From assembly GCA_025350465.1 (NCBI GenBank), contig JANXXU010000015.1:124001-188000 (forward strand): DNA of 64,000 nucleotides, in the 5' to 3' direction. The notes under the pieces are model-generated. The model did not search any database. It was not told the origin of the DNA and worked only from the letters and a program-made list of their open reading frames with translations. Numbering within the stretch: the first letter of the stretch is position 1; each line of letters begins with the position of its first letter. This document shows, piece after piece, positions 30,546 through 48,299 of the stretch. Both the position numbers and the translations under genes were made by a program. This stretch comes from Alphaproteobacteria bacterium (lineage in GTDB: Bacteria > Pseudomonadota > Alphaproteobacteria > Micropepsales > Micropepsaceae).

Positions 30546-31124
30546 TCACAAATAGCGCAGTGCTACAAAGCCGCCGATAAGGATGGCAACGAACGCGCTG
30601 GTGACCAGCGTCAGGCGCTTTTCGATGAAGGTTCGGATGGGTTCGCCGAAACTGCGCAACAACGCGGCGACGGCGAAGAAGCGCACACCGCGCGTCGCCA
30701 AGGAGGCGAGCGCAAAGATCAAGAGATCGAAATGTGCTGCGCCGCTGGCGATCGTGACGATCTTATAAGGGATCGGCGTCAGACCTTTGATCAAGATGAC
30801 CCAGAGGCCGTAGTCGTTGAATTGCTGCTGAAATCTGGCGAAGCCCGACTCGAGGCCGTAGAATTTGATGATCGAGGCGCCCCAAGTCGCGAAGAAGAAA
30901 TAACCGATCGCGTAGCCGAAAAAACCACCGATGACCGAGGCGGCAGTGCACACGGCGGCGATGATCCAGGCGCGCGCGGGCTTTGCCAGCACCATGGGGA
31001 TCAACATGGCGTCGGGCGGAATCGGGAAGAACGAGCTTTCGACAAAGGAGACGAGCGCCAGCCACCACAAGGCTTGTGGGTGCTCGGCGAGGGCGATGAC
31101 GCGATCGTAGAAACGGCGCAGCAT
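30546..31124 (-). CDS. YqaA/DedA-like small membrane protein
   Basis: This 192-residue protein has four to five hydrophobic segments and the family pattern LVSFVESSFFPIPPDAMLIP followed by GFFGYAIGYF and IKGLTPIPYKIVTIASG, typical of YqaA and SNARE-associated/DedA proteins. These are thought to be lipid or proton-coupled transporters or scramblases; function is not settled. The ATG at 31124 is preferred over an upstream start at 31199. It is convergent with thiD. Confidence 0.85.
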   Translation of the reverse strand: MLRRFYDRVIALAEHPQALWWLALVSFVESSFFPIPPDAMLIPMVLAKPARAWIIAAVCTAASVIGGFFGYAIGYFFFATWGASIIKFYGLESGFARFQQQFNDYGLWVILIKGLTPIPYKIVTIASGAAHFDLLIFALASLATRGVRFFAVAALLRSFGEPIRTFIEKRLTLVTSAFVAILIGGFVALRYL

Positions 31125-31290
31125 GTTGTTCCGCTTTTGAGCGTCATGCCTAACCGATGCGAAAACTGCGCGCAAACCGGCGTTCCGGGGTTGGTGCAAG
31201 GACGGCGATAGTCAAAGGCCGCGGGTCTCGATCCTTCGCAAACCAAATTGTCGTCAATGAGTTCCACCCTGGAGCTTTCCCACAGTTGCC

Positions 31291-32007
31291 ATGAAGACTT
31301 GCGGCACCTGGCCGGCAACAGTCTGGACTCTTGCCGGCTCTGCTGCGTTTCTAAATCTTGATTCCAACACCACTGCGGCCTCTGAGATGAGTGGCCAACA
31401 ATATCAAGACGAGACGAGGCTCAGGGCGGCGGCGGAGACGGCTGTCGACGGCGTCATCTTGATCGACGCCCTGGGTCGCGTGCTGATGTTCGATCGGGTC
31501 TGCGAGCGTATGTTCGGCTATCACGCAACCGAGGTCATCGGCGAGAACGTCAAGATGCTGATGCCCGATCCGTTTCGCGGCGAGCACGACCGTTACATCG
31601 AGAACTTCCGGCGCACGGACGTTGCAAAGATTATCGGCATCGGGCGCGAGGTCGTGGGCCGGCGCAAGGACGGTACTACCTTCCCGATGGACCTCTCGGT
31701 CGGCGAGGCCAAACAGGAAGGCGAGTCGGTCTTCGTCGGAATGATCCGCGATGTGACTGAGCGCAAGCGAACCGAAGCCCAGCTGGCGCGGGCGCGGGAG
31801 ATGGAGACTGTCGCGCAGCTGTCCGCACGACTTGCGCACGACCTCAACAAATTGCTGACCGTGATGATCGGCAATGCCGAAACGCTGGGAGATAGGCTCA
31901 AGGAGCGCCCAGAGCTGAAAACGCTCGCCGACCAAATCATCGCAGCGGGCGAGCGCGGCGCCGAGTTGACGGCGCGCTTCTTGGCGTTAGGCCGCGCCAG
32001 ACTCTGA
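31291..32007 (+). CDS. FixL-like heme-PAS protein with truncated kinase
   Basis: This 238-residue protein has one PAS domain (about residues 43-160) that closely follows the FixL oxygen-sensor pattern: GENVKMLMPDPFRGEHDRYI, then IIGIGREVVGRRKDGTTFPMDLSVGE. H99 and R119 are 20 residues apart, as are the heme-ligating His200 and oxygen-binding Arg220 of Bradyrhizobium FixL. A dimerisation helix follows with a phosphoacceptor-like H183 (ARLAHDLNKLL), but the protein ends before any ATP-binding domain. ATG 31387 is an alternative start. It may be a decoy, a phosphotransfer protein or a decayed kinase. Confidence 0.75.
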   Translation: MKTCGTWPATVWTLAGSAAFLNLDSNTTAASEMSGQQYQDETRLRAAAETAVDGVILIDALGRVLMFDRVCERMFGYHATEVIGENVKMLMPDPFRGEHDRYIENFRRTDVAKIIGIGREVVGRRKDGTTFPMDLSVGEAKQEGESVFVGMIRDVTERKRTEAQLARAREMETVAQLSARLAHDLNKLLTVMIGNAETLGDRLKERPELKTLADQIIAAGERGAELTARFLALGRARL

Positions 32008-32192
32008 TGTGACGGCCGATCGACTGATCCGGCGGAGTGTTTGCGGGAGGTACTGGACGGCCGGCACCGGGCCGCAACGGTGCCGCCGAGGCTCGCGCGC
32101 CAGTGCAGCGGCAACGCTCACGCGGTGGCGTGAGTGTTGCCAGCCGCGGCACGGCGACATAAGACGGTGCACTGAGCTAGAAGGCCTTCGCC

Positions 32193-32519
32193 ATGAACCA
32201 AGACGAGCTGACCAAATGGGCGCTTTCCAACGGCTGGCAGGACGTGGGCGGGCACATTGTGCTCGTGCGCCCCACCAAGCCGTCGGAGGCGATCGTGCGC
32301 TTGGCGTTCAAGGGCACGGTCGTGCAGCTCGAGATCAAGAAGCCGTCGGGCAAATGGGATAAGGTGAAGAGCGAAGCCTACGCCAAAATCGCTTATGACG
32401 AAGATTCCGAATTGCCACGCGGCATCGGTCTCACGACCATCTCGGGTCTCACGGCGCTGATGCGCGACAACAAGGATCGCCTCGCGTTTTCGAAGCTGGG
32501 CGGGACCGGCAAGCCTTGA
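32193..32519 (+). CDS. Unrecognised small soluble protein
   Basis: This 108-residue protein lacks a signal peptide or TM segment. It has a basic, mixed alpha/beta look with VRLAFKGTVVQLEIKK and a region rich in Lys and Asp. AAGG precedes the ATG by about 8 bases. I do not recognise a family. It sits alone between the PAS protein and the rhomboid gene, and the same-strand spacing would allow co-transcription with the latter. Confidence 0.6.
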   Translation: MNQDELTKWALSNGWQDVGGHIVLVRPTKPSEAIVRLAFKGTVVQLEIKKPSGKWDKVKSEAYAKIAYDEDSELPRGIGLTTISGLTALMRDNKDRLAFSKLGGTGKP

Positions 32520-45032: not shown

Positions 45033-45919
45033 GAGCCGGCCCTTGCGGCGATCAGCGCAGCGCGCACCGAACGCAAGGTTAGCGTGCACTCGATCGCGCC
45101 TTTGCCGTCGGTGCGCAACAATCGGCGCGGGACGTTTTTTTCCGTGAACGAGTTGGCCACGATGTAGATCGGCGCGCGCGGGTAACTCGGCTCGACCAAG
45201 GCGCCGGCGGCGACATCGGCCATCGGAAGAGCCAGGTGGCTAAGCCAGTTGCAGAATGACGGCAAACGATGGTGCGCAACATTATCTAGATACACCACGT
45301 GATTCAAAATCGATTGATCGCACAAACGATCGCCGTCCCAATGCTCGAGCGCGCTTTGAAACCGATCGCGCCATAGGTGCCACAGCGGCGATGCAACCGA
45401 GGCGCAAACAACGCCCGAGGCGATGTAAGGCATTGTCGCAAGACGTTGCGCGGTCTCGACGCCAAACGCCATGCGGTAGCGTTCGCGCACCCAGTCTCGA
45501 CTTGCCGGCGTGTGACGATAGCTGCGATCGATCGTCGGCACGACGCCGGCTAGCTGCGGCTGTGCGGCGGCCATCAGCAAGATCAGACCGCGTGGATGCT
45601 GAACGAACGAGTCGGCGTCGATCCAGGCATACGCGTCGTAACCGGTAAAATAGTCCGGCAGAAATGGCCGCGTCGCGAAGGCGCGGGCTTGAATCTGCTT
45701 GTCGAAGCGACTGTCGGGACGAAACGGCCACGGTGGTGCGACAACCATCGTGACACGGCGTTGCAGGGCGGCGCGTGTCGCCGGGGTCAGACCATAGTCA
45801 AGCAAGCCGATGTCGAAACGGAGCTGTTTCTGAAATCGCTCCAGCGACGCTATGAGGTCGCCAGCGAATTGGGCATATGCCTCATCGGCTCCGGTAACGA
45901 TGATAAACGGCTTAGGCAA
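45029..45919 (-). CDS. Glycosyltransferase-like protein, copy 1 of a tandem pair
   Basis: This 296-residue protein is a paralogue of the next gene: it shares the DxD-type motif (YAWIDADSF), RERYRMAFGV, DRFQSALEHWDGD, CDQSILN and NWLSHLALP. The start is TTG at 45919 with GGAG about 7 bases upstream. It is a cytoplasmic sugar transferase by fold pattern. It is divergent from the hybrid sensor kinase, and the two share about 80 bases of intergenic DNA. Confidence 0.72.
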   Translation of the reverse strand: MPKPFIIVTGADEAYAQFAGDLIASLERFQKQLRFDIGLLDYGLTPATRAALQRRVTMVVAPPWPFRPDSRFDKQIQARAFATRPFLPDYFTGYDAYAWIDADSFVQHPRGLILLMAAAQPQLAGVVPTIDRSYRHTPASRDWVRERYRMAFGVETAQRLATMPYIASGVVCASVASPLWHLWRDRFQSALEHWDGDRLCDQSILNHVVYLDNVAHHRLPSFCNWLSHLALPMADVAAGALVEPSYPRAPIYIVANSFTEKNVPRRLLRTDGKGAIECTLTLRSVRAALIAARAGS

Positions 45920-46001
45920 ATCGGACTCCGTTAGGACGATCTTGACCTTAAACCCGCTCGCGCATTGCCGGCCAGAAACAGTCTCTCAATGCTGCAATCA
46001 T

Positions 46002-48299
46002 ATGCTCGTTGGTCGAATTCTCTCAAACCGCACCGCGACCGGGATTTTGGCATTGCGCGCAGCCTTACCCAATCAGGACGGCGAGCGCCATCAAGCGATG
46101 GTCGTTGTCCTGAACGCCGACGGGATCGTCGTCGAGGTCGACGCGCCGTGGGGCGGTATCGCTCCGGGCGGCGCGTATCTTGTTTGCGTCGAACGTGCGA
46201 TCGGCAAGATCGTCGACCGAGGCGAGCGCCAAGAGCTGACGACAGCAATCGCGGATGTCCTTTCCGGCAAGCTGGTGCACAGGTCGATCGACCTACGCTG
46301 CGGACTCGGGCGCGAGGTCGCATGGCTTCGCATCACCGTGACGCCCAGGTCGCTTGGCGCGCGCGACGGCGTCGTGGTCGTGCACACTCCGGTCACGGAC
46401 GAGAAACAGCGCAAGGCCGAGCTCAACGATGTCGAGCGGCGGCTGCATGAGATTTACGGCATCGCCGACATCGGCGATTTCGAGTATGTCGCGGCGGTAG
46501 ACCGCACGCGGCTTTCGCCGCCGGTTTTGCGCATGTTCGGCTTGCCTGGCGATGCCTCGGGCAACAGCGACGAGTTTTTCTCGGCCGTGCATCCGGAGGA
46601 TCGTCAACGGGTCCTGACGATGCATCAAGACCCTTCGTGGCGACAGATGAAGTGCGAGTTTCGCGTCGTGCGGCCGGACGGCGAGGTTCGCTACATCTCA
46701 GCGACGATGCGCCGTGAAGTCGATGAAACGGGCGAGGTCGTGCGCGTCTTTGGCATCGACCACGATGTGACAGCGCGGCGACAGGCGGAAGAGCGCCTCG
46801 ACCGGTTGTTTGAGGCTTCGATCGATATTCTCAGCATCATCTCGTTTCGCGGCTTCTTCAAGCGCGTCAATCCTGCTTTCGCGACTCTGCTCGGTTATAG
46901 CGAGGATGAGCTTTGCATTAGGCCGGCGATCGAGTTCGTTCACCCCGACGACCGCGAGAGGACGTTTGCCGAGGTTCAAGCGCAGCTGCTTCAGACAAGC
47001 AAACAGCGCATCGAAAATCGTTACGTTCGCAAGGACGGTTCGCTCGTACGGTTGGCCTGGACGATGAGCCCGTCAGGGCGCGACATCCTGGGCGTGGCGC
47101 GCGACATCACGGCCGAGCATGCGGCGGCGGAGGAGTTGCGGCGCGCCAAGGAGGCGGCCGAAGCGGCGAGCACCGCCAAAAGCGAATTCCTTGCAACTAT
47201 GAGCCATGAAATCCGCACGCCGCTCAACGGCGTGATCGGCATGGCCGAATTGTTGCGAACGACGGCGTTGACGCCGGAGCAGAGGGGCCGTGTGGAAACC
47301 ATTCACGAGTCGGGTCAACTGCTGCTCACACTGCTGAACGACATTCTCGATCTATCGCGCATTGAAGCCGGTAAACTCGAGCTCGAAACGCGCAGCTTCG
47401 ATTTGCACCATTTGCTCCACTCGGCGATCGAATTGTGGGCGCCAACAGCGCGCGCGAAGGGATTGACGCTCGAGTGCGTTCTGGCGAACGATTTGCCGCG
47501 AACCGTCGAGGGCGACGAAACCAGGGTGCGCCAGATCGTCAGCAACTTGATGTCGAATGCGGTCAAATTCACCTCGCGCGGATCGGTTACGCTCAGCGGC
47601 TCGCGCGAAGGCGAGACAGTCGCGATCGGCGTGCGCGATACCGGCTGCGGCATCGATGGCGACGTGCTGCCTAAGCTCTTTCAAAAATTCAGCCAGGGCG
47701 ACGCATCAGTTACGCGCCAGCATGGCGGAACGGGGCTAGGTCTCGCAATCTGCAAGCACTTGGCTGAAATGATGGGCGGAACGATTTCGGTCGCCAGCGG
47801 AAAGGATAAGGGCTCAACGTTTACTGTCCACCTTGCGCTGCGCCAAATGTCTACGACGAGTGGGGCGACGCACGCCGCGCACGCAATGCCTACGAGTCCC
47901 CAAGGGCTGCACCTGCTCGTCGCCGAAGACAATGCGATCAACCGGAAGCTCATCGAGCACATGCTCGAAGCGCTGGGTCACACTTGCGATTTCGCCGAGG
48001 ATGGCGAGCAAGCGATTGTGTTGGCGAGAGGGCGCACCTACGACGCGATCCTGATGGACGTGCAAATGCCGGTACTCGATGGCATTTCCGCCGCGCGTCA
48101 GATTAGGATGCTCGATGGCGCCGCGTCACTCACGCACATCATTGCGGTGACTGCGAACGCGATGACCGGCGATCGCGAGAAGTATTTGGCGGCTGGAATG
48201 GACGGCTATGTGTCGAAGCCGATCAGCATGAACGATCTGGCGCGTACGCTCGATCAGGTGCGGACGGCCTCAGCCGTTCCGAAGACTGCGAGCGCTTAG
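46002..48299 (+). CDS. Hybrid sensor histidine kinase with PAS domains and receiver
   Basis: The 765-residue protein has no TM segment, so it is probably cytosolic. It has two or three PAS/PAC domains (about residues 15-370), a HisKA domain with phosphoacceptor H402 (ATMSHEIRTPLNG), a HATPase domain with the N-box and G boxes (DTGCGIDG and GGTGLGLAI), and a C-terminal receiver with D686 (ILMDVQMP). The signal and output are unknown. The start at ATG 46002 is a choice; earlier starts would overlap the divergent gene. Confidence 0.88.
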   Translation: MLVGRILSNRTATGILALRAALPNQDGERHQAMVVVLNADGIVVEVDAPWGGIAPGGAYLVCVERAIGKIVDRGERQELTTAIADVLSGKLVHRSIDLRCGLGREVAWLRITVTPRSLGARDGVVVVHTPVTDEKQRKAELNDVERRLHEIYGIADIGDFEYVAAVDRTRLSPPVLRMFGLPGDASGNSDEFFSAVHPEDRQRVLTMHQDPSWRQMKCEFRVVRPDGEVRYISATMRREVDETGEVVRVFGIDHDVTARRQAEERLDRLFEASIDILSIISFRGFFKRVNPAFATLLGYSEDELCIRPAIEFVHPDDRERTFAEVQAQLLQTSKQRIENRYVRKDGSLVRLAWTMSPSGRDILGVARDITAEHAAAEELRRAKEAAEAASTAKSEFLATMSHEIRTPLNGVIGMAELLRTTALTPEQRGRVETIHESGQLLLTLLNDILDLSRIEAGKLELETRSFDLHHLLHSAIELWAPTARAKGLTLECVLANDLPRTVEGDETRVRQIVSNLMSNAVKFTSRGSVTLSGSREGETVAIGVRDTGCGIDGDVLPKLFQKFSQGDASVTRQHGGTGLGLAICKHLAEMMGGTISVASGKDKGSTFTVHLALRQMSTTSGATHAAHAMPTSPQGLHLLVAEDNAINRKLIEHMLEALGHTCDFAEDGEQAIVLARGRTYDAILMDVQMPVLDGISAARQIRMLDGAASLTHIIAVTANAMTGDREKYLAAGMDGYVSKPISMNDLARTLDQVRTASAVPKTASA

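Follow-up and report, generated by a model that had tools for sequence, protein, structure and literature searches.

An apparently truncated FixL-like hybrid histidine kinase gene with a retained haem-type PAS domain in a Micropepsaceae genome

The locus and its open reading frame

The window (the whole 64,000-nucleotide stretch analysed here) contains an open frame at 31291-32007 of the forward strand, comprising 238 codons plus a stop, in which Pfam detects a PAS domain (residues 43-155, E 1.3e-11) and a HisKA domain (residues 175-236, E 2.1e-08), both over the curated cut-offs. No HATPase_c match was found in this frame or in the genome close by, so that the ATPase domain that follows HisKA in a sensor histidine kinase is lacking, as had been claimed in a sequence-only reading of this DNA. 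Indeed, the genome has 39 HisKA matches, and when these were compared by eye with its HATPase_c matches, all but the one in this frame had a HATPase_c match within about 500 bp. One PAS and one HisKA domain thus make up its content, against the two PAS, HisKA, HATPase_c and REC domains of a full hybrid kinase. The frame is open, and its GC3 of 0.80 is like that of its neighbours.

While the frame exists as originally delimited, translation more likely begins at the ATG at 31387, yielding a protein of 206 aa (31387-32007, forward strand) instead of 238 aa, because of homology with the full-length kinase of a congener: the N-terminus from this ATG, MSGQQYQDETRLRA, parallels MRTGQYSDEPRLRA, the first residues of the congener's protein, and the start contexts are similar. 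Numbered from this ATG, the two haem-pocket residues discussed below are H67 and R87, and the phospho-acceptor position is H151.

The gene is flanked by a DedA-like membrane protein gene (30546-31199, reverse strand; name assigned from sequence) and by a gene of 108 aa (32193-32519, forward strand), the latter separated from the stop by 185 bases, exactly the gap reported earlier. No fixJ (REC-LuxR) is present among the neighbouring ORFs and there is no REC match nearby, and therefore the gene is not part of a FixLJ pair. The search for a partner FixJ or full kinase, which had been proposed, did recover a complete FixL-FixJ pair, albeit elsewhere, on contig C25 (L173:2707-8903), where a P-type ATPase frame lies upstream of the pair, with a stand-alone receiver and two Crp/Fnr-type regulators downstream. 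Oxygen sensing of the FixL kind in this genome consequently need not depend on the gene in the window. The window also holds, at 45852-48299, an 815-aa PAS-HisKA-HATPase-REC hybrid kinase that is possibly CckA-like.

The PAS domain and the HisKA helices

The best PDB sequence matches of the PAS domain (31417-31776, forward strand) are FixL haem domains, with E about 1e-36 and without gaps across the haem-contact region. The putative proximal haem ligand (H99 in the 31291 frame, H67 from the ATG; 31585-31587) and the distal arginine (R119, or R87; 31645-31647), both invariant in our alignment, align ungapped to His200 and Arg220 of BjFixL. The 20-residue spacing to which the sequence-only reading had drawn attention therefore reflects homology and not chance. 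The distal hydrophobic residues are likewise kept (I114, I115, L135 and V137, equivalent to I209, I210, L230 and V232 of SmFixL; PMC10765370, where the roles of haem-pocket residues of the BjFixL His200/Arg220 type are described). The same paper puts the Soret band of SmFixL at about 434 nm in the deoxy form and 418 nm in the oxy form. The propionate-contact residues Arg206 and His214 of BjFixL are replaced by Asn105 and Lys113, but the same replacements occur in nearly all full-length relatives, and so are not losses specific to this gene. When a structure model built on a 21-sequence alignment (mean pLDDT 83) was compared with known structures, those of BjFixLH came closest, with Z about 18 and an rmsd of 1.6-1.7 over 104-132 residues. 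The proximal His, distal Arg, hydrophobic distal pocket and PAS fold of a FixL-type haem PAS are thus all in place, and the protein probably binds haem and O2; the oxygen-sensing capacity proposed earlier is, as a prediction of binding, well supported by signature, fold and model.

This single domain looks like a fusion of two tandem repeats, PAS1 and PAS2. The lead-in N-terminal to it is PAS1-like, with 8 of the 10 codons ahead of the domain closer to the PAS1 side; its first half is about equally similar to both or PAS1-like, giving no clear discrimination; and towards its end it is closer to PAS2 in 12 of 13 homologs, a pattern to be expected from recombination between tandem repeats. Elsewhere in the subfamily, the PAS domains of one full-length relative (L030:3551-5539) gave no match to the haem-type His-to-Arg motif searched, which suggests that haem binding has been lost in some of these hybrid kinases.

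The HisKA (DHp) helix pair (31777-32004, forward strand) is degenerate. The H-box, GQLSGGIAHDFNN in 20 of 20 full-length homologs, reads AQLSARLAHDLNK here, such that the H-D-x-x-N motif in its GGIAHDFNN context has become ARLAHDLNK. The gene retains the His at the phospho-acceptor position (His151) and the acidic residue next to it (Asp152), while the changes include GG, I and F, and Lys155 occupies the Thr/Asn position. Since this Thr/Asn is required for the phosphatase activity of HisKA kinases (PMC3510030), a residue needed for that activity is gone. The gene departs from the consensus at 13 of the 47 near-invariant positions of HisKA, where leave-one-out controls depart at 0-5, whereas the corresponding figure for the PAS domain (8 of 66) falls within its control range of 0-9. 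That the protein could not phosphorylate itself on its own, as previously argued, is well supported by both sequence and model.

Full-length relatives and the fate of the remaining parts

Comparison with relatives in search of a longer form, as suggested previously, revealed that those at 55-69% identity are proteins of about 650 aa with the architecture PAS-PAS-HisKA-HATPase-REC, which extend for about 308 further C-terminal residues. At the same locus, the congener G001 carries an intact kinase of 647 aa, in which Pfam identifies two PAS, HisKA, HATPase_c and Response_reg domains and which has 65% identity to the window gene across the region present in both. The gene order glmM-thiD-DedA-kinase-108-aa gene-rhomboid is common to both genomes, with the DedA-like protein 83% identical and adjacent in G001, and the 108-aa protein 77% identical and encoded directly after the full-length kinase. 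In other congeners folP-glmM-thiD-DedA is kept, the 108-aa gene lies elsewhere, and no kinase was found at this locus within the stretches examined. The gene in the window is best read as a truncated copy of one held by the common ancestor of its genome and G001, and because it is syntenic with an intact kinase there, we consider it a truncated derivative and not a working hybrid kinase. The earlier description of a truncated kinase therefore stands, but the parent was not FixL proper.

Relative to G001, the sequence missing (HATPase and REC) amounts to about 0.85 kb. Eleven codons past the stop, in the same frame, lies LREVLDG (32041-32061, forward strand), which resembles the REC tail LREVLDE of G001 and is a possible, if statistically weak, remnant of the last receiver-domain helix. 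It is the third-best match in the window for the C-terminal profile, with an E of 1.2 when all six frames of the window are searched, and local alignment against shuffles yielded no significant DNA remnants of HATPase or REC downstream, the LREVLDG region included.

The short form was not found in a second genome among 96 of the same family, and in 80 related loci nearly every match runs on well beyond HisKA, except at a few where a frameshift or stop divides the frame (L022, L058/L091, L107). Within these samples there is accordingly no sign of a conserved short family. Two further relatives that look short, L116/L174 (PAS-PAS, 278 aa) and L153/L175 (close to the end of a contig), reflect either unrelated truncation or a contig end. 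The gene at L174:2928-3764 (genome G014, near a contig end) is an independently truncated FixL-like gene with two haem-type PAS domains and a tail of unrelated sequence, overlapped by an opposite-strand frame that resembles the start of a Rieske-type oxygenase. The frames at L058:906-2497 and L091 (G032), and at L022:2341-4260, are tandem-PAS hybrid kinases split between their PAS and kinase parts by a frameshift or in-frame stop; these splits are possibly assembly errors, the genomes being metagenome assemblies.

Lineage-specific changes were identified by pairwise and majority-based comparisons. Amino-acid changes unique to the window gene outnumber those unique to G001 both in HisKA (23 vs 5 of 76) and in PAS (18 vs 7 of 120), and the proportion changed in the window gene is lower for PAS (18/120) than for HisKA (23/76; Fisher p 0.012). 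A neutral simulation set by the decay of HisKA predicts about 29 PAS changes, compared with an observed excess of about 11 (P about 0.003), and about two stop codons, compared with none observed (P 0.13). This simulation is crude, in that it uses one starting sequence and the majority comparison, sets the fused PAS against PAS2 only, and takes the HisKA excess as neutral. The results leave room for a PAS domain that selection maintained during at least some of the period since catalysis was lost, or for a truncation of intermediate age. With PAS changes below the neutral expectation, "dead" may be too strong a term for the sensor half. The observation named beforehand as telling against a functional truncated sensor, namely a relative revealing a simple, recent truncation of a normal FixL, has largely been made in the full-length gene of G001, although the truncation appears not to be very recent.

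Interpretation and comparison with known systems

In our judgement the gene is very probably the truncated ortholog of a hybrid histidine kinase of FixL-like type (haem PAS-haem PAS-HisKA-HATPase-REC), best read as a relic dead for signalling. Recombination between the tandem PAS repeats would have fused two PAS domains into one, and a deletion would have removed the HATPase and nearly all of the REC domain. The encoded protein could take the form of a haem-PAS dimer on a helical stalk; it probably retains haem and O2 binding but has no capacity to autophosphorylate. A residual role for the PAS domain, such as pairing with another PAS protein, is possible because that domain is more conserved than HisKA and the frame has stayed open; another possibility is a gene that is still expressed and decaying slowly.

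An alternative that shares much of this origin, and differs on present function, is that the haem PAS was retained in its own right after the loss of catalysis, and that, as an O2-responsive dimer, it engages another PAS kinase, such as the FixL of this genome, by pairing or titration. The intact pocket, modelled like BjFixLH, the lesser change of PAS relative to HisKA, the open frame with normal GC3 and the availability of a full FixL as partner are all in keeping with such a role, yet the lack of the short form in any second genome among the 96 family members, and a FixL paralog that is only 43% identical and unlinked, lead us to think it unlikely. Somewhat less likely again is the strong form of this proposal, in which a hybrid O2-sensing kinase has been cut down to a stand-alone haem-PAS dimer whose sensor is under selection while its stalk degenerates, acting without phosphotransfer (e.g. 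through PAS pairing).

Far more doubtful is the suggestion that the protein serves as a phosphotransfer or phosphatase module with a separate kinase, its His helix being used in an HPt-like manner. Although His151 and Asp152 are kept, residues that never vary among the 20 full-length relatives are gone from the DHp core, the Asn of H-D-x-x-N among them (PMC3510030), and GG, I and F of the H-box are among the 13 changed near-invariant positions, making either activity unlikely. Moreover, no small orphan HATPase_c partner is evident, given that HATPase_c matches without a nearby HisKA sit in large frames (488 to 870 aa). Finally, we give slightly less credence still to an assembly or sequencing artefact concealing a full-length gene. 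The short form is known from one genome, in a single assembly of 52 contigs, and tandem PAS repeats are prone to mis-assembly; however, assembly error does not explain a HisKA that has diverged far beyond that of any full-length homolog, and no unplaced piece of the gene was recovered, since at E 1e-20 the genome gave just one further match, the FixL paralog.

If the gene is a truncated relic, as we favour, the find is largely ordinary, a shortened copy of a common FixL-like kinase, and it serves as a caution that a short kinase may carry an intact sensor signature and yet be a relic, a matter settled by a congener at the same locus. Were the PAS domain truly still selected, it would be a case from nature in which a haem sensor has outlived its kinase.

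With respect to known systems, the rhizobial hybrid FixL (hFixL) of the hFixL-FxkR-FixK pathway (PMC7888657) is a FixL variant that is also termed hybrid, and is set beside the gene here on account of that name. BjFixL and SmFixL share the proximal His, the distal Arg, the distal Ile/Ile/Leu/Val and the fold of the haem PAS; in contrast to them, the protein described here has Asn/Lys at the Arg206/His214 positions (as does the hybrid subfamily), no ATPase domain and no linkage to fixJ. Its closest counterparts are the full-length tandem-haem-PAS hybrid kinases of about 650 aa (from G001, Bradyrhizobium sp., Desertibaculum and others), to which its PAS and HisKA domains align over their whole length, and from which it differs in being without one PAS, HATPase_c and REC and in its degenerate H-box, while occupying the same locus as the intact kinase of G001.
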